DNA from: a virus
Virus record (IMG/VR): IMGVR_UViG_3300027911_000030
Span: 1 to 41,139 of that record
Strand: one strand, 5' to 3'
Length of the DNA: 41,139 nucleotides
The notes beneath the pieces are model-generated. The model had not been told where the DNA came from. It worked only from the letters and a program-made list of their open reading frames with translations, and made no database searches. Position numbers and translations under genes: made by a program. Shown here one piece after another: positions 7,326 through 37,824 of the stretch (within the stretch, counting starts at the first letter, position 1; the number at the start of each line of letters is the position of its first letter).

Positions 7326-8317
7326 GCCGTGTAGGGATGGATGTTGGGCGTGAGGCGAATCGGGCTACCGTCGCTCTCACCCATCTCGGCGCGGCGCTTG
7401 GCGTCCGCCGCCTTGGCTGCGCAATAGGCAATCGTCGCAGGATCGCGATCAACTTTCGGGCGCTCATTGGCGATGAGCTCCGCGGTGCCCCAAATGACGT
7501 AGTTCTGCCAGCGCTGCGGGATCGCGAGCGTGTTCGTGAGTGCGCCCACGTCCTGCACGTGCATGTGCGTCACCGCGACGAGGATCTGCGTCGGGTCCGT
7601 GGGGACCTGCCACACCCACATCTGCGGAATGATCTGCTTGTCGTACCAGTACTGGAGGGGCTTCCCTGGCGCGGCCTTGTTGGGAAGGTCGTTGTACTGG
7701 TCGCGATTGAGCATACCCATGCGGATATCGCTCGGGGTGTTTCCGAACTGCACCGCTGTCACGCCGATGGAAACCGCGACGGTCTCGCGCACGCGCCACG
7801 CGCGCATCGAGAGCTGCGGCTGGATGTCGAACCAGTACGTGTTTCCCTGCACCGCCGTGAAGGTTGGGATCGTGTACGCGGTCGTCCACGTGGTGGCATC
7901 GGGGGAGTACTCAACCACAAGGTTTTGCGCACCCGCATTGCACGTGACGCCCACCGTCGTCGTGCTCGGGTTGCCCGAAGGCACGCCCGTATCGAGCCCG
8001 AGATAGGTCGCGCCGGAAATCGTGCTCCCGGCAAGGTAGGACATCGTGCGGATGTAGGCGCGCAGGAGATCGACCGTGCCGGTAGCGAGCGGATAAGTCG
8101 CCTGCCCCACCACGCAGCCCAGGAGCTGGCGCGTGATGCACCACAGGTTCACGCCGTCGTTGGCGAGATCCGTGAGGATGAAATAGAGGTTGTCCTTCGC
8201 GGAGAGCTGCTGCTCCCCTTCGATCTTGGAGGTGTCGACGCCAGCACGACGGAATGCGTGCTCCAAGATGCTTGAGACATCGACGACCGTTGCGCCGATG
8301 GTGCCGCTTGTCGCCAT
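7322..8317 (-). CDS. Head-tail connector / tail accessory protein (P22 gp4 / T7 gp11-like)
   Basis: 331 residues. The N-terminal helical part (VDVSSILEHAFRRAGVD) and the C-terminal part (LQYWYDKQIIPQMWVWQVP, then an Ala-rich helix) match the connector fold family that closes the portal in podoviruses. Between them, about residues 105-185, is a beta-rich insert (NLVVEYSPDATTWTTAY, then WFDIQPQLSMRAWRV) that resembles a discoidin or carbohydrate-binding type domain. GGAG lies 5 nt before ATG 8317. The assignment rests on motif resemblance and its position after the capsid gene. Confidence 0.65.
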   Translation of the reverse strand: MATSGTIGATVVDVSSILEHAFRRAGVDTSKIEGEQQLSAKDNLYFILTDLANDGVNLWCITRQLLGCVVGQATYPLATGTVDLLRAYIRTMSYLAGSTISGATYLGLDTGVPSGNPSTTTVGVTCNAGAQNLVVEYSPDATTWTTAYTIPTFTAVQGNTYWFDIQPQLSMRAWRVRETVAVSIGVTAVQFGNTPSDIRMGMLNRDQYNDLPNKAAPGKPLQYWYDKQIIPQMWVWQVPTDPTQILVAVTHMHVQDVGALTNTLAIPQRWQNYVIWGTAELIANERPKVDRDPATIAYCAAKAADAKRRAEMGESDGSPIRLTPNIHPYTA

Positions 8318-13511: not shown

Positions 13512-14039
13512 TCACAAAATGTAGACCCGCATCTTGAGCGGATCGCCAAGCACCTTGCCGATGATCTCGTGGTCATTGAAGCAGACGAACGTCACGCTTG
13601 CACCGCCATCCGGAGCAGCGACCACGATGCGGTCACCGTTCCAGCGCGGTACCCGCACGAAATCGCCCACCTGTGCCCACATTCCTTCCGGCCAAGGCTC
13701 TCCCGTCTCGCGATGACGAAAGCACAACGGACCCAGTGCAACCACCTTCGCAACCTGCTGGTTCCAACTGATGTCCTGCTGCGTCACACCGGAGAGAATG
13801 ATCCCTCCCCGGCTCTTCATTTGCGGCCTGCGCATCTGCACGAGCAACCGCGTACCAAACGGAACGAAGTTCGGCTCGACATCCGAAGGAAACGCATCCT
13901 CCAGCGTCTGCGGCGCGAGATCCACCGTATCCTGCCCCGGCATCCTCTCGAACCCTTCCGTCTCCCTTTGCGCTGCGATGTGCTGGCCTTCGAGAATCTG
14001 ATCGATGGCCTTCACATCCTCCCTCGACAAAACACCCAT
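13512..14039 (-). CDS. Phage-encoded GroES-like co-chaperonin
   Basis: 175 residues. Residues 59-168 follow the Cpn10 pattern: PFGTRLLVQ (first strand), KSRGGIILSG (compare GroES KSAGGIVLTG, the mobile loop that binds GroEL), QVAKVVALGP, VGDFVRVPRW and a closing ...EIIGKV. The N-terminal ~58 residues are an extra acidic extension absent from bacterial GroES. A perfect AGGAGG lies 5 nt before ATG 14039. The gene directly precedes the scaffold gene. By analogy with T4 gp31, it may cap host GroEL and help fold the capsid protein; the sequence match is direct, the role is inferred. Confidence 0.83.
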   Translation of the reverse strand: MGVLSREDVKAIDQILEGQHIAAQRETEGFERMPGQDTVDLAPQTLEDAFPSDVEPNFVPFGTRLLVQMRRPQMKSRGGIILSGVTQQDISWNQQVAKVVALGPLCFRHRETGEPWPEGMWAQVGDFVRVPRWNGDRIVVAAPDGGASVTFVCFNDHEIIGKVLGDPLKMRVYIL

Positions 14040-18648: not shown

Positions 18649-21600
18649 CTACGTCAACTCTTCGGGCTTGGCGATGCGATCGATCGCGAACTTCTTGCCG
18701 AACTTGTCTTTCCCGAGCGTGCGGATCCGCGGCTGCGTGGCGTTGGCCTGGAGCGTCGCGATCGCGCTCTTCAAGGCATCCACCGAGCCACCGTGCGCCG
18801 CGTGCATCTCCTGCGCCTGATCGCCCATGTCTTCGAGAGCCCGCAGGATCTGCTCATTGCCCTGCGCGATGATGGAGCCATTGGCCTGCATGCCCTGTGC
18901 AATCTGCGCCCCCATCGCCTGCAGGCCGTGCGAGAGCTCCTGCGCCTGACGGTTCTGCCCCTCGACGATCATGCCGATGAGCTCCGTGATCGCACTGCGC
19001 TGGCGCTCGACGTGCTCCGACATCTGCCCGTTCTGGATGTCGGGCATGCGCTGGAGCGCCTCGCCGAGCTTCGTGAGCGCCTGCGTGTGCTCGGGATCCT
19101 GCTGCACGACAATGGGCTGCGCGGCCTGCGCGCGCCCGCCCTCGGCCATCTTCTCGGGAATCTGCGAGAGCGGTGCAAGGTGCTGCGCGATCGTGTCCGT
19201 GATGTTTTGCAGGTGCTGGCGGTGCGTTTCGTGGCCCTGCTTGATGCTCTCCAGCACCTGATCGTTGTAGAGCTTCTTGTCGGCGCGCACGTTCTCCGCC
19301 TGCAAGCGCTCCTGCTCGCGCTGGTTCCTGGCGTTCTCCGCCTCCTTCTCGCGCGCATCTTTTTGCGCCTGGATCATCGCGTCGAGCTGGTTCTGCGACT
19401 GGAAGCGCCCCTGGTCGAGCTGCGCCTGCGACTGCTGCTTTTGCGTCTCCAGCATATGGTTGCTCTGGATGCGCGTCATCTCCGTCTTGTTATTCATCTG
19501 GTCGGCCTGCGCCTTGCGCTGCACCTCCGCCATACCGACCTTCATCTGCACCTGCGAGGCAGGATCAAGCGGCGGTTGCTGCGCCTGCTGCTGCGCCTGC
19601 TGGAAGAGCTGCATCGCCTGCTGGAACATAGGCCCGAGCTGCTGGAAGTCGTTGGAGAGCGCGTAATCGACAAGGTGCATCGTCACCGCGAAGCGATCGT
19701 CCGTGGATTTCGAATCCATCTTCATAAGCGACCCGGCGCGCGCCGCCGCGACGCTGTGCTCGACGTAGAGGTAGGTCATGTGCTCCACGACGTGCGCCAT
19801 GAGGGGCGGTAGCACCTTGGGCCCGAGGAGCGGATTGGCGCCGTACATCGGGGACGTGAGGTAGTGAAGGTGCACCTTCAGGTGCGCCATGTGATCCTGC
19901 TGCTGGAACGCCTTGATGGGCTGCTCGCCGAGCGCCGTCACCATGTTTTCGGAGATGGGATCGAGATCCTCGGCCTCGGGCTGGAACTTGAAGAGCTCCT
20001 CGGGATTGTCGATGTGGAGGAGGTTGAGCGTGCGCTTCAAGATCCCGTCAGGGTTCGCCTTGGGCATGAAGACGGGGTTCTCGGCGAGCTGGTGCACCGC
20101 CTGCATTTGCGCGTAACGCTGCGTCTCGCTGAAGATGTGCGGATCGGAGACCGGAATGATGTCGCAAGGACCTTCGAAGTCCTCGCGCATCACGACAAGG
20201 TCGCCGAGCTCCTCGACCGTTTCCTTGTCGGAGAGGTGCCACTTGTTGAAGCGGTGCAGAACCTTGAGCTCTTGCGCCTGCGAGTGATGGAGACCGCTGT
20301 GGATGTCGGAGAAGACGCCGCTCCCCTGCTCGATGAGCGCGAGCACGCTTCCCACCGGCATGTCGTTCTTGCCGTCCGCGAGCTTGTCGCTTGCCACGCT
20401 CACGACGCCGCGCGCCTGATCCACCATCCACTGGATGGTGTTGAAGAGGACCGGCGTGCTGGGCGGGAAGGGGTAGGGCATGTAGAGCTTGCGGATGTCG
20501 TCGACCGTTCCCGCAGTCGGGCCTTCAAGCTCCGCCGTCTCGCCGACCGAGGGCTGCTCGCTCGTGCCGCTCACCTTGCCGCCCTTGAGCTTCACGCCGC
20601 TCATGGAGTTTTCGGCAAGCGCCTTGTCCAGAATCGAGCGCAAGCCTCCGGTGATCGCTCCCGAAAGCGAGCCGATGAGGTGGAGGAGCCCTACGCCCTG
20701 CGGACCGCGCCAGTGGATGAAGGTGTAGTCGATGAGAAAGTGCATGCGCTCGCGCGTCTCATCGTCCTCCTCCCAGTTGCGGTAGAGCCCCAGCACCTTG
20801 CGCGTCGTGGCATCGATGTGCCAGATGTAGGGCGTGGGATCGCCGCCCGATTCCTTGTCATCGTCGAACGCCTCGCACTCGCTGTTGACGACGTAGATCG
20901 TGCGCAGCCCGTCCTGGTTGTAGGGGTCGAGCGAAACGCCTGCAACCTTCTCCGTCGCCTTCGCGCTCGATGTGAGCTCGGGGTCGAGCGGATGCGCGAT
21001 GTCCACGTCGACGTACATGCCGGAGTCGACACGCGAGAGGAACTTTTGCTCCGTGATGTCCTGGCGGTGCGTGATGCGCTGGCAGGAGTAGAAGTCCTGC
21101 GACTCCGACGGAAGGATCACGTGATCGATCGGCACGAACTCATTGCGCGGACGCTTGAGCTCGTGGTCGTACCACCAGTTCTTGTACTGCGAACCCCCGA
21201 GCGGAAGCTGCGTGAGCATCTTCTTGGTTTGCGTGCGCGTCTCGACGATCTTGGTCGTCATCTGCCAGTTCATGTACTTGCGCTTGCGCTCGGCCTTGTC
21301 GACCTTCTCGGGCGTGCTCTTCCCAATGATCTTGGTTTTGCACGGCCCATCAGGCGGGAAAATCTCCTTCATCGCCTTGGCCGAAAAGTCAATGCACTGC
21401 TCGGCAAGCACCGGGTGCACCGCGCGCGATGCGCCCTCGAACTGCGCGCCGCCGGGCGCATCACCACCGAGTCCCGTGCGCTGGATGCCCTCGGCCTGCT
21501 GCTTGTCGCGCTCCTTGCGCGCCTCGATGTCGCGCTCGATGAGCTCCAGGAGCTCGTCCGCGCGCTTTTGTAGGACGGAAGCATCAATCACGCCATCGGC

Positions 21601-21834
21601 AAGGTTGGCGTAGAAGTCCCCCGCGTTGTTGTTGCTGTGGTCGTCATCCTCCCCGAGCGAGACGAGCGCGGACCCATCGTCCTGCATCTCCACATCATCG
21701 TCGGGAATGGAGTCGGGCCCATCATCGGGCACATCGGTGTCCTCGGGAGGACCGCCAACCGGCATGCCGTCCGCATCGAGCGGAATCGCGGAAGAGCCGT
21801 CCTGCGCCTCAGCGGGGAGATCGTCGTCAAGCAT
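18649..21834 (-). CDS. Portal protein, unusually long
   Basis: 1061 residues. After an acidic N-terminus (about 1-70), a core to about residue 680 has portal hallmarks: SRAVHPVLAEQCIDFSAKAMKEI, the NWWYDHELKRPRNEFVP region, a LHLIGSLSGAITGGLRSILD helix, and the late helix leading to Met/Gln-rich sequence. From ~690 to ~1000 it becomes a very long Gln/Ala/Glu coiled coil (QLFQQAQQQAQQPPLDP; QKDAREKEAENARNQRE), comparable to portal barrels or wings but longer than usual. The portal forms the DNA gate at the capsid vertex. GAAGGGA lies upstream of ATG 21834, and the start overlaps the preceding gene by 8 bp. Confidence 0.88.
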   Translation of the reverse strand: MLDDDLPAEAQDGSSAIPLDADGMPVGGPPEDTDVPDDGPDSIPDDDVEMQDDGSALVSLGEDDDHSNNNAGDFYANLADGVIDASVLQKRADELLELIERDIEARKERDKQQAEGIQRTGLGGDAPGGAQFEGASRAVHPVLAEQCIDFSAKAMKEIFPPDGPCKTKIIGKSTPEKVDKAERKRKYMNWQMTTKIVETRTQTKKMLTQLPLGGSQYKNWWYDHELKRPRNEFVPIDHVILPSESQDFYSCQRITHRQDITEQKFLSRVDSGMYVDVDIAHPLDPELTSSAKATEKVAGVSLDPYNQDGLRTIYVVNSECEAFDDDKESGGDPTPYIWHIDATTRKVLGLYRNWEEDDETRERMHFLIDYTFIHWRGPQGVGLLHLIGSLSGAITGGLRSILDKALAENSMSGVKLKGGKVSGTSEQPSVGETAELEGPTAGTVDDIRKLYMPYPFPPSTPVLFNTIQWMVDQARGVVSVASDKLADGKNDMPVGSVLALIEQGSGVFSDIHSGLHHSQAQELKVLHRFNKWHLSDKETVEELGDLVVMREDFEGPCDIIPVSDPHIFSETQRYAQMQAVHQLAENPVFMPKANPDGILKRTLNLLHIDNPEELFKFQPEAEDLDPISENMVTALGEQPIKAFQQQDHMAHLKVHLHYLTSPMYGANPLLGPKVLPPLMAHVVEHMTYLYVEHSVAAARAGSLMKMDSKSTDDRFAVTMHLVDYALSNDFQQLGPMFQQAMQLFQQAQQQAQQPPLDPASQVQMKVGMAEVQRKAQADQMNNKTEMTRIQSNHMLETQKQQSQAQLDQGRFQSQNQLDAMIQAQKDAREKEAENARNQREQERLQAENVRADKKLYNDQVLESIKQGHETHRQHLQNITDTIAQHLAPLSQIPEKMAEGGRAQAAQPIVVQQDPEHTQALTKLGEALQRMPDIQNGQMSEHVERQRSAITELIGMIVEGQNRQAQELSHGLQAMGAQIAQGMQANGSIIAQGNEQILRALEDMGDQAQEMHAAHGGSVDALKSAIATLQANATQPRIRTLGKDKFGKKFAIDRIAKPEELT

Positions 21835-24502
21835 CGGAAATTCCCTTCAGAAATGGCGCGAAGTCTTCCTTCACCTTCGCGTCCCAATCGACTTCACCGC
21901 CCGCCGCCATGCGAAGCGGCGTGGCGTACGGATTCTTGCCGATCTTGGGTGCGTGGCGCATGAGATGCGCAACGACAGGATCGCTCGACGTGGCAGCGGT
22001 TGCCGCCGTGCGTCCACTCATCATCATGCGCACAGGGCCTCCGACAGCGTAGGGCATGCCGTTTTGCAGGATGTCGTTCTGGATGTCGGGCGTCATGCTC
22101 ACCGAGCGATACGGGATCGCGTTGCCGCTGCTGGTGCCGTACGTGCGCCCTTCCGTGATCGGCACGTTGTAGTGCTTGGCAAAGGGTTCGAGCACGTCCT
22201 GCGGGAGCGCTTGGTCGTAGAGCCAGCCGTAGTCCTTGCTGCCGCGCAGGGACTCGATCGCCTTTGCCGCAGGCACTGCAAACGCGGAAGCGCCCGACTG
22301 CGCTGCGTGGTGGAGTGCTGCCGCACCAATCTGCCCCGTCCAATCCTGGAGCGAAGCAGGCGCCTCCTTGGCGGAGCCCAGGCGCGAGAAGGTCTGCGCA
22401 GGATCCGACTGCGCTTCTTCGAGGAAGAAGGGGTTGGTACCTAGCGCCGCGGAGCTGTCTCCCCCAGGCATCAAGGAGCCGCGAAAGTGCCCGAGGTACT
22501 TTTCGCGCACATCGGCAGGTGTGAAACCCGGGTAGTGCGAGGTAAGTCGGCGCTCATCGGGCGACATCTGCTGCAAGCGAGATGCGAGGCGCGCCCAATG
22601 CTGCGCATCGTAGGAAGCATCGGGTGCGCCGCCCTTGTCGATGAGCTTTTGTAGGTTCGCCATCGGGATCGTGGGGCGGTATGCAAAATCTCCGTGTTGC
22701 ATCGCGAGCCGCAAGCCCGTAGGAGCATTGGAGAAGACGTTTTGCTCGGTGTAGTAGCGCGGATCCGTGGGATCGAAGAGGCGCTGCGTATTGCTGTAGG
22801 CCCAGGGCTCGGCTTCTTGTGGCTCACGATCACCACCCAGGTCGTTTCTTGCTTCTTCGTACGCATCATCAAAATGACGTTCGTGGAATACGTCGCGCGC
22901 ACTATCCAGGTGATTGTTGACGTGCTCAGAAAAAAGATTGTTGAACCCCGGATCGAAGTGCTCCTTCTCGTCAAGCCGAGCAAGCGATCCGAACTGCGGG
23001 AAATTCCCCGCATCCGCAAGGTCACTTACGAACGCGTGGTAGTTGGGATCGTCCGTGTCGATCCCCAGGTGGTGCGTGGCGATGTTGTGCGCAGTGTCCG
23101 TGTCCCCCGAGAGACCCGCGCGGTAGAAATCTGCAAGCGTCGTGCGCTCACGCTTGGTTAAGTCCCTTTCGTTTGCACTGCCGCTGCCACCGATGAGAGG
23201 AAGCCTGCGCTGCACGCCCGACATCTCCTGCTGCTCACGAAGCGAGCCCGTGGGAGGAAGGCCCTTTTGCATGAGGATGTCGTTGAGCATCTCGTGCGCA
23301 TGAGCAGCTTTCCAGGACGAGACATCGTTTCCCTGCAAATACTTGTCGAGATCATCGAATACATCGTGCATCACTTCCTGGTGGTCGTAATGCTCCGAAT
23401 GATCCGCGTTGTCCCACCAGTCCTGAAGGATCTCGTGCGCACGGTCATGGACCGCTTCATCACTCGGTCCTTCCTCCTCGTCATTCGCAAAGCCGAACTT
23501 GCGCTGCCACTTCTCGGGCAGCACGTCCTGGCGGTTGATGACGCGCACGAGTCCCGGAGGATTCTGGAGCGCCCCCGCAAGCTGGCTCTTCGTGAGCGTG
23601 GCGTTGGGGTTCCCGCCGGTGAGCCGGTTGATCGCCTCCTCGCGCACCGCACGCAAGGCGCCGGGCCGCGCGCCCGTTTGCTGCGCGGCGTTCTGGAGCT
23701 GGCGCGCAAAGTCCGCCGCCTTTTGCGTCTCGCCCCCGCGCAGCACGCTCGCTGCGGCGGTGCCCGTGATGGGCTGCAGCGGCACATCGCGCCGCAAGCC
23801 GTAGAACTTCTTCATCCACTCGATAGCCTTGACCGCATCGCCACCTGCGCCATAGCGCGGCATCTCGGCAAGAGTGCCCGCGGTGGGGTGCTCTCCGAAC
23901 TTGCGAAGGAGCGCCGGGATCTTCGCGCCCGCACTGCGCGCCTTGCTCGTGATGGCGCCCGCTCCCACGCCCATGTCGCCGACGAACTGCCCCATGTCTT
24001 CCCCGACATCTCCGGCGTGTTGCAGGCTCTGCGAGGGCGCAGGATTGCGCAGGTACTGCGCATACTTGCGGATGTCATCCGAGGAGAGCGGGATATTGCG
24101 CTTGATCCAATCGGAAGCCATGCCCGGCGCGCCGCGCTCCATCTCGTCGGGGCGCGTTGCCCAATCCGCCATGTCGAGCGCGCCCGTCACCGCGCCGTGC
24201 GGCAAACCCAGGACGCCCGCAACGCCGCCACGCCCCGCGCCCTTGGTGAACTCCCAAAGGTGGCGCATCTGGTCGCCGTAGGGCATGGGCGTGGCACCAG
24301 GAGCTGGGGGCGGCGCGCTCACCGGGAAGGGCGCATCGTCCATCGATGGAGGAACAGCGCCACCGTCGGCGAACTTGCGGCCCACATCGGCGCTCGCAAA
24401 GTCCCGGCCCACGCTCTGCGGCACACCGGCCTTGCGCGCAAAGGATGGCGAGTGCGCGATCGCCTCCATGAACCGGTGCTGCTTGGCGGATTTACTTGGC
24501 AT
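21827..24502 (-). CDS. Large phage protein with polyvalent-type EEaQSD domain
   Basis: 891 residues. Residues 3-40 (SAKQHRFMEAIAHSPSFAR...GVPQSVGRDF) are a short conserved phage motif seen near packaging genes. Residues ~690-820 match the pattern of a C-terminal domain in phage large polyvalent proteins: FFLEEAQSDPAQ, an Ala-rich helix, WLYDQALPQDVLEPFAKHY, then SVSMTPDIQNDILQNGMPY. In the middle is a His/Asp-rich acidic helical region (HDRAHEILQDWWDNADHSEH). Such proteins are thought to be injected with DNA; that role is inference. It lies between portal and large terminase, overlapping both (8 and 11 bp). Confidence 0.6.
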   Translation of the reverse strand: MPSKSAKQHRFMEAIAHSPSFARKAGVPQSVGRDFASADVGRKFADGGAVPPSMDDAPFPVSAPPPAPGATPMPYGDQMRHLWEFTKGAGRGGVAGVLGLPHGAVTGALDMADWATRPDEMERGAPGMASDWIKRNIPLSSDDIRKYAQYLRNPAPSQSLQHAGDVGEDMGQFVGDMGVGAGAITSKARSAGAKIPALLRKFGEHPTAGTLAEMPRYGAGGDAVKAIEWMKKFYGLRRDVPLQPITGTAAASVLRGGETQKAADFARQLQNAAQQTGARPGALRAVREEAINRLTGGNPNATLTKSQLAGALQNPPGLVRVINRQDVLPEKWQRKFGFANDEEEGPSDEAVHDRAHEILQDWWDNADHSEHYDHQEVMHDVFDDLDKYLQGNDVSSWKAAHAHEMLNDILMQKGLPPTGSLREQQEMSGVQRRLPLIGGSGSANERDLTKRERTTLADFYRAGLSGDTDTAHNIATHHLGIDTDDPNYHAFVSDLADAGNFPQFGSLARLDEKEHFDPGFNNLFSEHVNNHLDSARDVFHERHFDDAYEEARNDLGGDREPQEAEPWAYSNTQRLFDPTDPRYYTEQNVFSNAPTGLRLAMQHGDFAYRPTIPMANLQKLIDKGGAPDASYDAQHWARLASRLQQMSPDERRLTSHYPGFTPADVREKYLGHFRGSLMPGGDSSAALGTNPFFLEEAQSDPAQTFSRLGSAKEAPASLQDWTGQIGAAALHHAAQSGASAFAVPAAKAIESLRGSKDYGWLYDQALPQDVLEPFAKHYNVPITEGRTYGTSSGNAIPYRSVSMTPDIQNDILQNGMPYAVGGPVRMMMSGRTAATAATSSDPVVAHLMRHAPKIGKNPYATPLRMAAGGEVDWDAKVKEDFAPFLKGISDA

Positions 24503-26123
24503 AGGGATTCTCGCCGCGCTTTCGCGCCTTGTGGTAATCCTTGAGTGGCGGAGGATCGCGCGGAATCTCGGGGAGCGCGAGCAGTCCGTCGTTCTTGAAG
24601 AGGATCACGGCCTGTGTGAAGGTGTCTACGTAGTCGTCGTGCTCGCCCTTGGGGAACTCTTCGAGTTGCTTGAGGAACGGACGCGCCCACATGATGGGCT
24701 TGCCTGCTTCCTTCTTCGATTCGAGCACGTAGAGCAGACCCAGCTCCAGAATAGGCGCGGACAGATGAGCGCGAACCAGTTTGTCAGCACGGCCCGGGTC
24801 ATACCCACGTGCAGGAACTCCGGCTTGGCGCAGATCCTGCAGCAGCGAAATACCACTGCCCTTTTCCTCGACGAGTACAAGATCCGCGCGCCGCGGAGGA
24901 TGGTTGAGTTTGAAGCCGCCACCTTCCTCAATGCCACCGTACGTAGCACGGTAGTCCTCCATCGCCTTCTTACGAAGCTGCGGATAGGAGAGCCGATCGT
25001 CCCAGCAATCGAGAAGGAGCGCGCAGTTCACCTTTCCAGTCCAGTCGCCATAGTTGATCTGCTTTTCGAAGATACCCCACACCGTGCACGCCGTCGCATC
25101 GTTCTCCGTCTTCTCGGTGAAGGCCGTGTCGTAGGACTGCACGACGAATAGAAAATCGGGGAGCTTGCGATCCGCACCCCAAAGACGGAAGTTCGTAATC
25201 TTGAGCAAGCCCCCGCCGATCGGCGAGGGACGCTGCTGCATCTGCCCCGCCGTGCCGTACTCGCCCAGGCGCTTCTTGAGCACGTCGACCGTCTCGAAGG
25301 GGAAGAGCTCGGGCCACATGAGATCACCGACCTTCTCGCGCGGGTCGTTCATGTAGACCTTGGAGCGCGTCATGCGCCCCGGCTCGTACTCCATCGGGAT
25401 GCACACGTGCTCCCAGTTCTTGCGAAAGTCTTCGAGTTCCGTGATATGGCCCGTGAGATCCTTCGCATGCAGGCGCTGCATGATGACGAGCGTGCCCGCG
25501 TTGCGTGAGGCGCCCCGCAGCGAGAGCGTAAGGTCGAACCACGTGATCGCCGCCTCGCGCTCCACGTCGCTCTCGGCCTCCTTCACGTTGTGCGGATCGT
25601 CGACGATCTTGAAGTCCGGGTGCTCACCCGTTGCACGACCACCGACAGAAGTGGCGATCCGCCACCCGCCCTGGACAGTGTGAAAGCGAGTCTTGGAGTC
25701 GTTCCGAGGATCGACGGCAACCATTGAACCCCAGAGACCTTGAAACCACTCGCTTGCAATGAGCTCACGAGCTCGCACAGAGTCTCGAACGGAAAGGTCT
25801 CCCCCGTAGCTGGCAGTGAGAAATCGCTTCGAGGCATCCTGGCTCCAGACCCAAGGATGAAAACACACGGAGCACAGGATCGATTTCATCGAGCCCGGCG
25901 GCACGTTGATGAGGAGATTGTTGATCTCGCGACGATAGAAGGCTTCGAGGCGCTCAGCAAGCATGTCGAGGTGCCAGTTGTGCGAATAGAACGCATCGGG
26001 GCCTTCCACGCTCTTCCATGCGGCGCGCATGAATGGAACAAGGGAGCGGTACTTGCGCCGCTCCCTCTCCAGCGCGACCGCTCCACTGATCGCGCTGAGT
26101 TCCGTTGCCGTGAACTGCGTCAT
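24492..26123 (-). CDS. terL: Terminase large subunit
   Basis: 543 residues. ATPase motifs: Walker A NVPPGSMKS (residues 73-81), Walker B FKIVDD (171-176), coupling motif TLVIMQRLH (~211). Nuclease (RNase H-like) acidic motifs: QSYDTAF (~340), LVLVEEKGSG (~430) and HDDYVDTFTQA near the C-terminus. This motor packages DNA into the prohead through the portal. The length and motif order are those of a complete TerL. It is 4 bp after the membrane protein gene and overlaps the following gene by 11 bp. Confidence 0.95.
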   Translation of the reverse strand: MTQFTATELSAISGAVALERERRKYRSLVPFMRAAWKSVEGPDAFYSHNWHLDMLAERLEAFYRREINNLLINVPPGSMKSILCSVCFHPWVWSQDASKRFLTASYGGDLSVRDSVRARELIASEWFQGLWGSMVAVDPRNDSKTRFHTVQGGWRIATSVGGRATGEHPDFKIVDDPHNVKEAESDVEREAAITWFDLTLSLRGASRNAGTLVIMQRLHAKDLTGHITELEDFRKNWEHVCIPMEYEPGRMTRSKVYMNDPREKVGDLMWPELFPFETVDVLKKRLGEYGTAGQMQQRPSPIGGGLLKITNFRLWGADRKLPDFLFVVQSYDTAFTEKTENDATACTVWGIFEKQINYGDWTGKVNCALLLDCWDDRLSYPQLRKKAMEDYRATYGGIEEGGGFKLNHPPRRADLVLVEEKGSGISLLQDLRQAGVPARGYDPGRADKLVRAHLSAPILELGLLYVLESKKEAGKPIMWARPFLKQLEEFPKGEHDDYVDTFTQAVILFKNDGLLALPEIPRDPPPLKDYHKARKRGENPYAK

Positions 26124-30256: not shown

Positions 30257-30466
30257 TCAAGCGTTGCCGCCAACACATGCGCTCGTCGCGTTGACGAGCC
30301 CGCTGCGAAATCCTTCGTACCACGCGAGCCAGAGCTCCTGCTCGGTCTCCGTCACCGGGCGCTCCTCGATCGATGCGCCGCGCTTCGTCTCCAGGCGCAC
30401 GCTTGCATAGCGCGATGCCATGAGGTGAAGCCGACCGCCATCTTCCTCGACGTGCAGCACGATCAT
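30257..30466 (-). CDS. Small phage protein, unknown
   Basis: 69 residues: a beta-strand N-terminus (MIVLHVEEDGGRLHLMA) followed by an alpha helix (TETEQELWLAWYEGFRSGL) and a short tail. The start ATG overlaps the TGA of the preceding gene (ATGA), so it is coupled to the putative small terminase. The function is unknown. The overlapping longer frame at 30228-30551 is a shadow. Confidence 0.6.
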   Translation of the reverse strand: MIVLHVEEDGGRLHLMASRYASVRLETKRGASIEERPVTETEQELWLAWYEGFRSGLVNATSACVGGNA

Positions 30467-31008
30467 GTCTTGCTCGCTTTCTCCAGCATCTTCGAGAGCA
30501 TTTCAAGCTCCTTGTCGGAGAGCTTCGATACGTCGATCGTCGTGCTGCCAATCGCGACGATCGAACCGTTCACGGCAGGCTCACCCTCAACGCCTGCGAT
30601 GCGCTTGGGCTTCTCGGACATTTGGTAGGGAAGGAGCGCCTTTGCGATGCCGATGCGATCGCGAAAGGGAAGGAACGGTTGATGCATCGCATGCGTGAGG
30701 AGCTCGTACGGAGTCCAGCCTTGCGAGCGCTGCCAGCGCTCTTCCTCGGTGAGCGCTTCGTCGGTAGGAAGCTGGGACTCCGCAGGCCCACGACCGATCG
30801 AGAGGCGATCGAATCGCTCGATGTACTCGCGTGCCTCGTCGTCGGTGATCGGCGGCGGGACGGGCTGCCAGTAGGTGAGGAAGTGCTTGCGGTCATCGAG
30901 CTCGCGCCCCGTAGGCGGCGGGTCGTCCGCTGTGGGCAACGGCGCGCGGCGTGGCGTTGCATCGTTTGGCGCCGGGGGCTTGCGCTTGGGGCGAGAGGAT
31001 CCCGGCAT
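30463..31008 (-). CDS. Candidate terminase small subunit
   Basis: 181 residues from ATG 31008 (a GTG six bases upstream is an alternative; neither has a strong ribosome site). The N-terminal 40 residues are Pro/Arg-rich. A helical centre (DDEAREYIERFDRLSIG; QGWTPYELLTHAMHQP; IGIAKALLPYQM) precedes a C-terminal beta piece (VNGSIVAIGSTTIDV) and a final helix (SDKELEMLSKMLEKASK). It is the first gene of the leftward packaging/virion block, where small terminases usually lie. The assignment is by position and helical character, not by a recognised HTH. Confidence 0.5.
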   Translation of the reverse strand: MPGSSRPKRKPPAPNDATPRRAPLPTADDPPPTGRELDDRKHFLTYWQPVPPPITDDEAREYIERFDRLSIGRGPAESQLPTDEALTEEERWQRSQGWTPYELLTHAMHQPFLPFRDRIGIAKALLPYQMSEKPKRIAGVEGEPAVNGSIVAIGSTTIDVSKLSDKELEMLSKMLEKASKT

Positions 31009-31210
31009 CGACACCGCAGTCCGTGGCTCAGTGCGCTGACCGCACCAACGCAGCGGAAGGTATCACGCGAGCGCCTTGGGGGGAAGGGAGGATGCTGGTG
31101 GTACACGAGGAAAAGTCATGTACCACTCATGTACCAGCGGGTTTTCAGAGGAGAAAAGAAGGTTTGGAATATAGGTACATTGGTACATTACCTTCTAAAA
31201 AGCTATAGAA

Positions 31211-31253
31211 AAGTGTATACATAACATAATGCGTATATTATGGCAAAACACTT
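31211..31253. repeat. Central AT-rich dyad of the array
   Basis: Nested inverted repeats: AAGTGT (31211-31216) with ACACTT (31248-31253), and CATAAT (31225-31230) with ATTATG (31237-31242). The centre is near 31232-31233, the same as the centre of symmetry of the ten hexamers. Low melting stability would suit strand opening. Confidence 0.7.
31218..31246 (-). promoter_or_regulatory. Possible leftward promoter in the dyad
   Basis: Minus strand: TTGCCA (31246-31241), 17-nt spacer, TATGTA (31223-31218). It has a good -35 and a poor -10 match. It would drive the packaging/virion block and lies between the two inner pairs of GGTACA sites, so it would be covered by a bound protein. Confidence 0.3.
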
Positions 31254-31367
31254 ATATAAAAGAGTTTTGGCGAAAAGTAATGTACCGCATGTACCAGTGT
31301 GCAAGCACTGATTCAAAACGACTTTTTTGGTACATCACTTTGGTACATCACATGTACCACCCCGAAT

Positions 31368-31396
31368 TTGACACTCGACCCTCTTCGGCGCAGACT
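31368..31396 (+). promoter_or_regulatory. Candidate rightward promoter P1
   Basis: TTGACA (31368-31373), 17-nt spacer, CAGACT (31391-31396). The -35 is perfect and the -10 is weak. The outermost array site (TGTACCACC, 31353-31361) ends 6 bp before the -35, a position suited to activation. It would transcribe the gene at 31442. Confidence 0.45.
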
Positions 31397-31441
31397 TAAC
31401 CGCAAACTACCACACCCTTAATTTTCAGCGCAAAGCCCCGA

Positions 31442-31831
31442 ATGGACACCTCTTCCTTCCTCACGCACAAGCTCCACTTCCGCATTGCCCAGGACGACGA
31501 TCTCCTGCACGAGTTCGAGCGCTTGGCCGCGATCGAGCTTCCCGAGCTCCTCGCCGCCAAGGAGGCGCAGCACTTCAACCGTCCTCGCTACACCGCCGCG
31601 AGCGCATGGCGCTGGTTCAACGAGCACTGCACCCAGGACCAGCGCCGTCGCTACCGCACGATCACGACCGCCAGGGGCAAGAAAGCCGGGGACCTTTACG
31701 TGAAGGACGTGTGGGAGAAAGCCTTCCCACAGCGCCCGCCTGTGCGTCCCACAGGGCTCCTCACCAACCAGCAGGTGCAGGCGATCGCCTACGCCCGCGC
31801 TCTTCGAAAGCTCCTTGACAAGAACCAGTGA
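31442..31831 (+). CDS. First protein of rightward block, unknown
   Basis: 129 residues, mixed alpha with many charged and aromatic residues (ISCTSS frame excluded). Visible pieces: FRIAQDDDLLHEFERLAAIE, AASAWRWFNEHCTQDQRRRY, TGLLTNQQVQAIAYARALRK. No membrane segment and no HTH I can name. The start ATG lacks a clear ribosome site. As the first gene after the operator array it is a candidate regulator or replication accessory protein; this is by position only. Confidence 0.65.
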   Translation: MDTSSFLTHKLHFRIAQDDDLLHEFERLAAIELPELLAAKEAQHFNRPRYTAASAWRWFNEHCTQDQRRRYRTITTARGKKAGDLYVKDVWEKAFPQRPPVRPTGLLTNQQVQAIAYARALRKLLDKNQ

Positions 31832-31883: not shown

Positions 31884-34010
31884 GTGTCATCCCCTCCACA
31901 GCTCGTCATTAACGACCTTGCTCGCAGTGGTCTTGCGTTCGATCCCGACACCATGCGTGCGGCCAATCCCCACACGGACCCGGCGCTCGTTGCCGTTGTC
32001 GCGCCCCAGCTCGACGTGAAGGAAGCCGACGCGATCCTCACGTTCCAGTACTACCGATTCAACGAGGACGGCACGCTGCGCCCGCTGCCCCTGGGGGACT
32101 TTGCGCGCACGCGCGTCTACTGGAAACCCCGCACGGGCTTTGACGCGCTCGCAACGAAGGACCCGCGCCCCAAGTACCTGCAGCAGCCCGGCACGCCCGT
32201 CGAGCTCTACATCCCGCCTACGCTCGATTGGACGGAGTACTTCAAGGAAGATCACTACCCGCTCATCGTGACGGAGGGCGAGAAAAAGGCGCTTGCGATC
32301 GCGCAGCGCGGACTCTATGCCGTGGGTTTGGGCGGCGTGAGCTCCGTTGCCCCGGGCAAGAAGAAGGGTGGGCGCGACATGGAGCTCCTTCCCGATCTTG
32401 CGCGCGCCGCTGCGGGGCGCATCGTGTACGTCGTCTTCGACATCGATGCAGGGTATCGGGGCTTGAAACCCGAAGTGAGCACCGCGGCGCGCCGCCTTTG
32501 CTCGCGCCTTGTGCTGGCAAACGCCAAGCCGCGCGTTTGCATCCTGCAGCGCAATCCCAATGTCGATGTGGCGACGAAATGGGCGGTCGATGATTTCCTC
32601 GTTGCCAATCCCGACATGGATGCAGAAGAGTTCCATCGCCGCGTGCACCACGATTCCGAAGCCGATGCGAGCGCCGAGAAACTCCTCTCGATCGATGCGA
32701 AGTACGTCTACGTGCGCGATCTTCACGCCATCGGGGATCGCAAGACACGATCGTTCCACGCCAAGGACAACTTCCTCACGATCGCCAATACCGATCAGGT
32801 GGCGATGACCGAGCTCACGATCACGCGCGAAGGATTGCACACCTTCCGCGAGCGCGCGATGCCGCTGGGTAATGGTTGGCTGCAGTGGCGGGGCCGCAGC
32901 GAAGTGCGCACGGCGGACTACCGCCCCGGGTGCGAGAGCGAGATCGCGCCCGATGGCGTCTTCAACCGCTGGAAGGGCTGGGGGCAGGCGCCCGATGCGG
33001 ATGCGGACCTGGAGGATATAGAGCGCTTTCGCGATGGGCTCATGCTCCTTCATGGTGAAGAGGATTGGTACCACATGTTCCTCTGGTACATGTACCCGCT
33101 CGCCTTTCCCGAGATCAACAAGCAGTACGTGGTGCCGGTGCTGCAAAGTGAGGCCGAAGGAGTGGGGAAGAGCTTCTTTCCCGAGATGGTCGGGATGCAC
33201 TGCTACGGGCCCGACAACTACACCTCGATCTCGGAAGGCAACATCGATGACCGGATGGAGTTCGTGGGGGAGCGCATGTTCGTGCAGCTCGACGATGTGA
33301 ACTCTTTGAAGATGCAGCAGGCCAAGCTCAATTCCATCATCACGAACAAGACGCTGCGCGTCAACGAGAAGTACGTGCGCAGCCGCGATGTCGCCAACCG
33401 CATCAACATCGTCATCACCACGAACCATACGAACCCGCTGCGGATCACCGAAGACACGCGGCGCTTTTTCTTCCCCGAGATCATCGGACGCAAGGACCCC
33501 AGCTATTGGAACGCGCTGCGCGAATGGTTCGAGGGCGGAGGCGGCGGCAAGCTCATCGGGGTGGCTCGCAAGATGCGCGCCTGGGGGGTGTTCGCCGACT
33601 ACGATCCGCGCGCTGCGGCGCCCGTCAATGCGCGCCACCATGAGCTGGAGGAGCTCTCCGTCACGGAAGCCGATCGCTGGACCGAGAAGAGCTTCGTGCA
33701 GCAGGCGGTGCGCGACATCGTGACGTTCAACGAGGCGTGCGCGGCCTTCCAGGCGCTCATGCAGGCGCAAGGGGCGCGGCCCGTGGAGTACGCCACCTCC
33801 GTTTTCAAGCGCGCGGTGAACCTGTGGACGCGCGACAACGAGCACGCCAAGCGCGTGCTCTCGGCCAGGAAGGATGGCAAGCGCGTCAACATCACCGCGT
33901 ACTGCGTTCGCAACATCGAGCGCTGGGGCGGCGAAGACGATATGGCGTGGAAGAAGGAGATCGACACCAAGCCCCACGCCTACCGGGGCAACATCCCGAA
34001 GAACTACTAG
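31884..34010 (+). CDS. Primase-helicase fusion (TOPRIM-like + SF3 ATPase)
   Basis: 708 residues from GTG 31884, with AGAGG about 7 nt upstream. The N-terminal half contains a TOPRIM-like (DUF3854-type) core: LIVTEGEKKALAIAQRG (E131) and VYVVFDIDAG (D186, D188). The C-terminal half is a D5/SF3-type ATPase: Walker A SEAEGVGKS (~421-429), acidic Walker B FVQLDDVN (~467), sensor-like VITTNHTNPL (~510) and an arginine-finger segment TRRFFFPEI. It would unwind and prime phage DNA at the origin. It is the main replication gene seen here; no polymerase accompanies it. Confidence 0.83.
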   Translation: MSSPPQLVINDLARSGLAFDPDTMRAANPHTDPALVAVVAPQLDVKEADAILTFQYYRFNEDGTLRPLPLGDFARTRVYWKPRTGFDALATKDPRPKYLQQPGTPVELYIPPTLDWTEYFKEDHYPLIVTEGEKKALAIAQRGLYAVGLGGVSSVAPGKKKGGRDMELLPDLARAAAGRIVYVVFDIDAGYRGLKPEVSTAARRLCSRLVLANAKPRVCILQRNPNVDVATKWAVDDFLVANPDMDAEEFHRRVHHDSEADASAEKLLSIDAKYVYVRDLHAIGDRKTRSFHAKDNFLTIANTDQVAMTELTITREGLHTFRERAMPLGNGWLQWRGRSEVRTADYRPGCESEIAPDGVFNRWKGWGQAPDADADLEDIERFRDGLMLLHGEEDWYHMFLWYMYPLAFPEINKQYVVPVLQSEAEGVGKSFFPEMVGMHCYGPDNYTSISEGNIDDRMEFVGERMFVQLDDVNSLKMQQAKLNSIITNKTLRVNEKYVRSRDVANRINIVITTNHTNPLRITEDTRRFFFPEIIGRKDPSYWNALREWFEGGGGGKLIGVARKMRAWGVFADYDPRAAAPVNARHHELEELSVTEADRWTEKSFVQQAVRDIVTFNEACAAFQALMQAQGARPVEYATSVFKRAVNLWTRDNEHAKRVLSARKDGKRVNITAYCVRNIERWGGEDDMAWKKEIDTKPHAYRGNIPKNY

Positions 34011-36073: not shown

Positions 36074-36364
36074 ATGTCCCAAACGCACCGCATCAACCGC
36101 AACAACACCACCGTCACGACGCTGCCCGACGGCACACGCGTCGTCGTCCTCCACAAGACCCCCGTCGTTACCGCGCATGCGGACGGTCGCGTGACTTTTT
36201 GCACCGGCGGCTGGTTCACCGCCACGACCCGCACGCGCATCAACCAAGTGTGCAGCGAGTGGGGCATCCCCTGGCGCGTGGGGTTCACCAAGGCAGCCAA
36301 CGCCGCCCGCAACTACGTGACCGGCGAAGTGCGCGAGTTCGTCGGCGACTCCCTCACCGTCTAG
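36074..36364 (+). CDS. Small phage protein, unknown (conserved)
   Basis: 96 residues from ATG 36074, with TTGGAG 8 nt upstream. Contains RVTFCTGGWFTATTRTRIN and a C-terminal helix (TKAANAARNYVTGE). The GGWFTATT-TR-N motif belongs to a conserved early-gene protein found in many phages and plasmids without known function. It is the first gene of the P3 transcript and ends 8 bp before the helicase start. Confidence 0.65.
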   Translation: MSQTHRINRNNTTVTTLPDGTRVVVLHKTPVVTAHADGRVTFCTGGWFTATTRTRINQVCSEWGIPWRVGFTKAANAARNYVTGEVREFVGDSLTV

Positions 36365-36372
36365 GAGCCGCC

Positions 36373-37824
36373 ATGCAACCCTCCACCTACCAGCAGGCCA
36401 TCTTCGACTTCGTCGCCACGGGGCACGGCAACGCGATCATCAACGCCGTTGCGGGCTCCGGCAAGACGACGACCGTCGTCGAGGCGCTCAAGCTCACGCA
36501 GGGCGATGCGGTCTTCCTCGCCTTCAACAAGGCGATTGCGGAGGAGCTCAAGGCCCGCGTTCCCTCGCACGTCCAGGCGCGCACGTTCCATTCCCTGTGC
36601 TACGGCCCCGTCACGCGGGCGCTGGGCGTGCGCGAAGTCAACACGAACAAGCTGCGCAACCTCGTCGAACTGACCTTCGAGGACGAGGAGCGGCGGCTCT
36701 ACGGCGCCTTTGCGTGCAAGCTCGTGGGGCTCGCGCGCCAGGAAGGTGTGCACGCCCTCGTGCCCGACACCGAAGGCGTGTGGGCCGACATCGTCGCCAA
36801 GCACAACATCGAGCTTGATTCCGACGATGCCACGATCGCACGCGGCATCGAGCTCGCGCGCAAGCTCCTCGAAATGAGCAATGGCATGCTCGACATGGAC
36901 TTCGACGACATGCTCTACTTCGCGGTCCTGAAGGGCATCAAGCTCCCTACGTTCGACTGGGTGTTCGTCGACGAGGCGCAGGACACGAACGCGATCCAGC
37001 GCGCGATCCTTCGCAAGATCCTGCGCCCGCGCGCGCGGCTCGTCGCGGTGGGCGATCCCGCCCAGGCGATCTACGGGTTCCGCGGTGCCGATGGCAACTC
37101 GCTGCAGCTCATCCGCGAGGAGTTCAAGGCGGCGGAGCTCCCGCTCTCCGTCTCCTACCGCTGCGCCAAGTCGATCGTCGATCACGCGCGCCAGTACGTG
37201 CCGATCATCCAGGCGCACGAGCATGCGGTTGACGGAGTCGTGCGCAGCATGGGCGAGGAGTGGAACCACGGCATCTTCAGCGCCGATGACCTTGTCGTGT
37301 GCCGCAACACGAAGCCCCTCGTGGCGCTCGCCTACAGCCTGCTGCGTGAGCGCATCCCCTGCCACATCATGGGCCGGGACATTGGGGAAGGTCTCAAGGC
37401 CCTCGTGCGGCGCATGAAGGCGCGCGATATCGATGCCCTGCAGCTGCGCCTGGAAGCCTACAAGACCCGGGAGATGGAGAAGGCCATTGCCAAGGGCGAG
37501 GAGGCCCTGGCAGCCGCGATCGAGGACAAGGTGGACTCCCTGCTCGTCGTCGTGGGCGGATTGCCTGAGAACGCGCGTACGGTCGCCGAGCTCCTGCGCG
37601 TGCTCGACGAGATGTTCTCCGACGCCGGGCGGCGCAACCTCACGCTCGCCACGATCCACAAGAGCAAGGGGCTTGAGGCGGATCACGTGTTCTGGCTCAA
37701 CCCCTCGGTGTGCCCCAGCAAGTGGGCGAAGCAGCCCTGGCAGCAGGAGCAGGAGCGCAACCTCATGTACGTTGCGATCACGCGCGCCAAGAGCAAGCTC
37801 ACGAAGATCGAACTACCCAGGTGA
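36373..37824 (+). CDS. UvrD/Rep-like superfamily 1 DNA helicase
   Basis: 483 residues from ATG 36373 with TAGGAG upstream. SF1A motifs in order: QQAIFDF (Q motif), AVAGSGKTTT (Walker A, 26-34), VFVDEAQDTN (motif II, ~199-207), VAVGDPAQAIYGFRGA (motif III), LSVSYRC (motif IV), TIHKSKGLEADHVF (motif V) and NLMYVAITRAKSKL (motif VI). All motifs are present, and the length is short compared with bacterial UvrD (~720), as in phage helicases. It would unwind DNA in replication or recombination. Confidence 0.93.
   Translation: MQPSTYQQAIFDFVATGHGNAIINAVAGSGKTTTVVEALKLTQGDAVFLAFNKAIAEELKARVPSHVQARTFHSLCYGPVTRALGVREVNTNKLRNLVELTFEDEERRLYGAFACKLVGLARQEGVHALVPDTEGVWADIVAKHNIELDSDDATIARGIELARKLLEMSNGMLDMDFDDMLYFAVLKGIKLPTFDWVFVDEAQDTNAIQRAILRKILRPRARLVAVGDPAQAIYGFRGADGNSLQLIREEFKAAELPLSVSYRCAKSIVDHARQYVPIIQAHEHAVDGVVRSMGEEWNHGIFSADDLVVCRNTKPLVALAYSLLRERIPCHIMGRDIGEGLKALVRRMKARDIDALQLRLEAYKTREMEKAIAKGEEALAAAIEDKVDSLLVVVGGLPENARTVAELLRVLDEMFSDAGRRNLTLATIHKSKGLEADHVFWLNPSVCPSKWAKQPWQQEQERNLMYVAITRAKSKLTKIELPR

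Follow-up and report, generated by a model that had tools for sequence, protein, structure and literature searches.

We analyzed a viral DNA of 41,139 nucleotides (the window, an IMG/VR virus contig of 41 kb with no end repeats) and found that ten copies of the hexamer GGTACA, arranged as a mirror image around an AT-rich core, very probably form an iteron-type replication origin at which the phage's own primase-helicase would act. The best explanation of the array is a P4/PICI-type iteron origin carried by an autonomous tailed phage. A preliminary description had offered two readings, an origin with iterons and a binding array that controls both transcriptional directions; the first is well supported by the relatives of the phage, by P4 and by the PICIs, and the second found no support of its own.

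All ten copies of GGTACA or TGTACC reported within 265 bp were confirmed by sequence match, at positions 31100–31358 and in the order + − − + + | − − + + −. From left to right, they are the outermost left site (31100–31105, +), two outer-left sites (31119–31124 and 31130–31135, both −), two inner-left sites that face the core (31174–31179 and 31182–31187, both +), two inner-right sites that also face the core (31281–31286 and 31290–31295, both −), two outer-right sites (31329–31334 and 31342–31347, both +) and the outermost right site (31353–31358, −). The orientations of the eight sites between the two outermost ones are as in relatives, and the extended form of most sites is TGGTACAT(g). The cluster is far from chance: the word occurs 23 times in the whole window, against 6.7 expected from dinucleotide shuffles (none of 100 reached 23), and the Poisson probability of ten copies in 265 bp is about 6 × 10⁻²¹ before correction for the windows and words examined. 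Each site has a mirrored partner, with opposite orientation in 5 of 5 pairs, and the computed pair midpoints (31229, 31233, 31232, 31234.5 and 31234) fall within the range 31229–31234.5 given earlier. Such symmetry has a probability of about 3 × 10⁻⁴ if ten sites are placed randomly and of about 1 × 10⁻⁵ if the right cluster alone is randomised; with positions fixed and orientations randomised, the effect is modest (p = 0.03).

The AT-rich core between the inner sites (31188–31280, 93 bp), the presumed DNA-unwinding element, has an A+T content of 73%, whereas the genome as a whole is about 63% G+C. The two nested dyads described on the axis of the array are present, centred at about 31232–31233.5, with AAGTGT (31211–31216) and ACACTT (31248–31253) as the outer arms and CATAAT (31225–31230) and ATTATG (31237–31242) as the inner arms, all read from the sequence. 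They are short, however, and hairpins in the core are unexceptional, folding barely better than shuffles (z = −1.7). Many relatives (L027, L046, L048 and other loci of the group with the word GCTACA) have in common a purine-rich run (gaagaagaagaag) within the AT-rich core, which the window lacks. Rfam and tRNA scans gave no match. GC skew, computed as a check for an origin, gave a weak signal that is confounded with gene direction and pointed to no clear origin.

The array lies, as had been claimed, at the point where leftward genes that include the terminase diverge from a rightward block starting with the primase-helicase. The first leftward gene (30463–31014, −) encodes 183 aa without a family match, and its product is possibly terminase-small-subunit-like, given a weak visual resemblance. 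The leftward block also contains the terminase large subunit (24492–26123, −; phrog_38) and portal-like, head-protease and tail genes. The portal-like protein is very long (1061 aa; 18649–21834, −) and, like the 891-aa virion protein encoded by the adjoining gene (21827–24502, −), has weak family matches only; a GroES-like co-chaperonin (13512–14039, −; phrog_3188, E = 3 × 10⁻⁸) is encoded within this structural block. To the right of the array, the primase-helicase gene (31884–34010, +; 708 aa), whose product is the presumed initiator, is followed by a gene for a UvrD/Rep-family helicase (36199–37824, +), assigned by family match. An ORF of 129 aa (31442–31831, +) without a family match lies between the array and the primase-helicase gene; other loci have unrelated small ORFs in this place.

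The single close relative, IMGVR_UViG_3300006162_000030, has an identical intergenic sequence and array, so that conservation is not tested by it. A DNA search of phage records with the window gave no match, genome contigs scanned with the primase as a single protein yielded none, and single-protein scans of IMG/VR say nothing on conservation because the near-identical contig was their sole return. An alignment-based scan for primase-helicase homologues yielded 80 loci, 70 of them non-redundant, with homologues about 25–28% identical to the window protein. An exact 6-mer array (5–12 copies) around an AT-rich core near the primase-helicase gene was present in 34 of the 70, a count that includes the near-identical relative and accepts as arrays exact 6-mers rarely reached by dinucleotide shuffles; five or more copies of a 6-mer were found in about 7% of 1607 control windows. 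The layout thus recurs in the related intergenic regions, although with other 6-mers in place of GGTACA, among them GGATCA, GTTACA, GCTACA, GCTTCA, GGTTCA, TGGTTC, CGGATA and AATTCG. About half of the homologous loci had no array by exact 6-mers, which indicates that the array is missing from some members or frequently degenerate; with one mismatch allowed, about five to seven more loci showed one (for example L031, − − − + + + | −) and the rest none. The named Pseudoxanthomonas phage PW916, Stenotrophomonas phage AXL_3 and phage ctUtU524, whose primases are about 26–27% identical to that of the window, have a gene order in common with it. At the array position, an AT-rich core lies between imperfect inverted repeats in PW916 and AXL_3 (arms of 37 nt and 34 nt, respectively), and ctUtU524 carries inverted CTGTTTC repeats.

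To compare layouts, we let the member richest in sites stand for its word cluster, centred it on the AT-rich gap and set the inner-left sites to +. In the 17 other word lineages, with the window excluded, the counts of + and − sites were 4 and 27 at −125 to −80 bp, 31 and 0 at −80 to −30 bp, 0 and 29 at +30 to +80 bp, and 9 and 0 at +80 to +125 bp, where the normalisation sets the inner-left sign, the three other bins are free, and sites that belong to the same locus are statistically dependent. Relatives with an array have outer sites pointing one way, inner sites pointing toward the core, and then the mirror image. Eight window sites agree with this blueprint (− at −112 and −102, + at −58 and −50, − at +50 and +58, + at +98 and +110), and the window has an outermost pair beyond these eight. 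Without the window, mirrored pairs numbered 31, against 22.6 ± 2.3 when orientations were randomised (1 of 3000). The inner orientations were opposite, by majority, in 16 of 18 word clusters, the exceptions among exact words being GCTACA and GCTTCA; because degenerate CTACA sites are seen beside the core in the GCTACA group, exact-word counts may understate the symmetry. One locus with the word GTTACA, L070, is a near duplicate of the window design (− − | + + + | core | − − − | + +).

A scan of DNA alone with the pattern GGTACAT-(0–10)-GGTACAT-(70–100)-ATGTACC found 20 contigs. In the unrelated elements retrieved, the array is in most cases next to a different primase/helicase gene (VapE, DUF5906, Toprim plus AAA_25 or DUF3987), often at its 3′ end and away from divergent promoters. 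At least seven sites were present in L097, a PICI-like Companilactobacillus element (+ − + + | − − + − −, beside a VapE-type Rep), and in L090 (DUF5906), L092, L098, L101 and L109 (Toprim plus AAA_25) and L104 (DUF3987), as well as in L093, where the gene beside the array had no match. In L092, L098, L101 and L109, the dense arrays lie directly 3′ of the Toprim plus AAA_25 genes with no AT-rich gap; since the sites are packed in this way, the layout of the AAA_25 group differs.

These comparisons bear on the possibility that the array is a transcriptional operator, in which a phage regulator would occupy the ten sites and control divergent promoters of the virion and replication blocks. Its position within a divergent intergenic region suits such a role, and operator and origin functions are compatible, as an origin could autoregulate too. 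However, a search of positions 30900–31600 for sigma-70-like promoters, the one promoter type covered, found none; in L097, L090, L101 and L109, like arrays are found next to the 3′ end of a replication gene; and spacing and orientation are conserved about the AT core, not about a promoter. We consider an operator unlikely.

Whether the array belongs with the primase-helicase or with the terminase can be judged from one mosaic locus. A packaging site (pac or cosB-like), with the repeats bound by the terminase small subunit, would fit the many relatives whose terminase genes start immediately to the left of the array, and small terminase subunits of some phages do bind repeated sites. The terminase neighbours the array in most loci, but its families differ (phrog_2, 9, 38 and 979), and the blueprint is kept beside these differing families. 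Over all pairs, iteron similarity correlates with both primase identity and terminase identity (0.57 and 0.64, respectively), and these correlations are confounded by shared descent, so that we used the mosaic locus L021 alone to separate the two proteins. Its terminase is of the same type as, and 42–44% identical to, those of L015, L020 and L064, and its primase is 74% identical to that of L069, with which it shares the iteron GCTTCA. In this one case, the iteron word goes with the primase and not with the terminase. Given also that the like arrays of P4 and the PICIs are origins, a packaging site is very unlikely. Least probable of all is a partition (parS-like) site or a functionless repeat array, which the short arrays of the control windows would allow, but orientation and spacing agree site by site with relatives that use other words, and no partition gene was identified in the tested part of the gene set. 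The 129-aa ORF was also considered as the partner of the array and was dropped, as it has no family and many relatives could not accommodate it. Where the array lies about 280–340 bp upstream of the primase, an intervening ORF would hardly fit, if at all, and thus the small ORF is not the general partner.

The primase-helicase is the most likely initiator of the proposed origin. It matches DUF3854, which we read as Toprim-like, as well as DUF5906 and VapE-like SF3 families, and it is related to phage primases. Among the homologous proteins it is a divergent member. In a Foldseek search, the NrS-1 helicase (6k9c) came first, and the SaPI5 primase-helicase and PriRep1 with dsDNA were among the next matches. 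AlphaFold models and the alignment place a presumed iteron-binding domain in the C-terminal part (approximately residues 583–697; 33630–33974, +). Its helices and beta pair or strands would fit a winged helix, and this part of the window protein is modelled at low to moderate confidence (pLDDT about 40–80, against 83.6 overall); the model of the L070 protein has a pLDDT of 90.8 overall and of about 90 up to residue 670. Four PICI-like Companilactobacillus elements (L110–L113) have Reps that are 92–100% identical and array words that differ (GGTACA, GATACA and GAGACA). In the best comparison, L110 with L111, the Reps differ at 15 of the last 108 residues and at 9 of 360 (p = 2 × 10⁻⁵). The arrays of these elements lie downstream of Rep, at about 7401–7700, and form a natural specificity-switch series.

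In the mechanism that we propose, each GGTACA (extended TGGTACATg) would be one iteron, bound by the primase-helicase via its winged-helix-like C-terminal domain. The initiator would sit on both sides of the 93-bp core, with the inner pairs facing the core and the outer pairs facing away, and would open the core by melting and load SF3 helicase rings onto it. SF3 initiators of small eukaryotic DNA viruses form opposite-facing rings and replicate DNA bidirectionally, and the two-fold symmetry of the array suggests one ring per half-array, facing in opposite directions, which would lead to bidirectional replication. The array, its symmetry, the conserved blueprint, the association with primase-helicase genes and the one mosaic are observed; origin activity, like binding, core melting, two-ring loading and bidirectional replication, is what we infer from them.

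With the window, the known design takes in an autonomous tailed phage, and with it a large group of relatives. We lean slightly toward a broader view, in which the four-block mirror-image iteron origin would be the common type in a wide range of autonomous Toprim-SF3 tailed phages, most of them uncultivated, with a fixed layout, a word that changes with the C-terminal domain of the initiator, and a symmetry that would place two opposite-facing helicase rings. If so, origin specificity would be readable from sequence, and origins, initiators and recognition words could be obtained for many uncultivated phages in this way. Words that switch rapidly while the layout stays the same would offer a ready system for studying initiator-origin coevolution and the ways in which the origin of one phage evades the initiator of another. 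The mirror-image design has so far been described as peculiar to satellites (PICIs, with P4 similar) (PMC6092414). Our results suggest that this design, called PICI-unique, also occurs in autonomous tailed phages, which bears on the source of satellite replication modules.

A literature search that covered a part of the journals found no description of these arrays in this phage group. The preliminary description held that no such design was known, but the P4 ori and crr and the PICI origins (PMC6092414) have a like layout, and the array is thus not without precedent, although a complete ten-site mirror is unusually regular against them. The window shares with this type the repeat sets flanking an AT-rich region, the outer and inner blocks on both strands, and the SF3 primase-helicase gene nearby. 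In the deposited annotation of P4 (NC_001609), the "ori type 1 repeats" run + + | − − + in crr and − − − + | − − in ori, that is, short iterons on both strands in the block order of the window. The P4 alpha primase-helicase likewise combines Toprim with an SF3 (DUF5906) helicase. DUF5906 is the sole Pfam match common to alpha and the window protein, in a profile alignment that spans 104 columns, and homology to alpha over its full length (zinc ribbon, Toprim, D5_N, DUF5906 and Pox_D5 C-terminus) was not found. The P4 word, in contrast, is the 8-bp TGTTCACC/GGTGAACA, and ori and crr are separate, with crr made of two 120-bp copies, whereas the window, from an autonomous tailed phage, has a single array whose ten sites form a complete mirror and which lies 5′ of the initiator gene.

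PICI origins, including those of SaPIs (Pri-Rep), have an AT-rich region between two iteron sets and an SF3/VapE-like helicase in the initiator (PMC6092414), and a PICI-like Companilactobacillus element (L097/L110) has the identical GGTACA word in nearly the same order. PICI origins lie immediately 3′ of rep (PMC6092414), whereas the window array is 5′ of the primase-helicase gene; and PICIs are satellites, whereas the window has its own terminase, portal-like, head protease and tail genes. NrS-1, the closest solved helicase fold (6k9c), is likewise a phage with a DUF5906-type helicase and sequence-specific initiation, but it has an AEP PrimPol domain and two 8-nt recognition sites genome-wide instead of a Toprim-like primase and ten sites (PMC7102993). 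The window would work in a manner similar to the SF3 origins of eukaryotic viruses without being a member of that class, since the DNA-binding domain of the initiator, the host and the site sequence all differ. In those systems, which include SV40 T antigen and papillomavirus E1, short sites paired in inverted orientation bring in two helicase rings.
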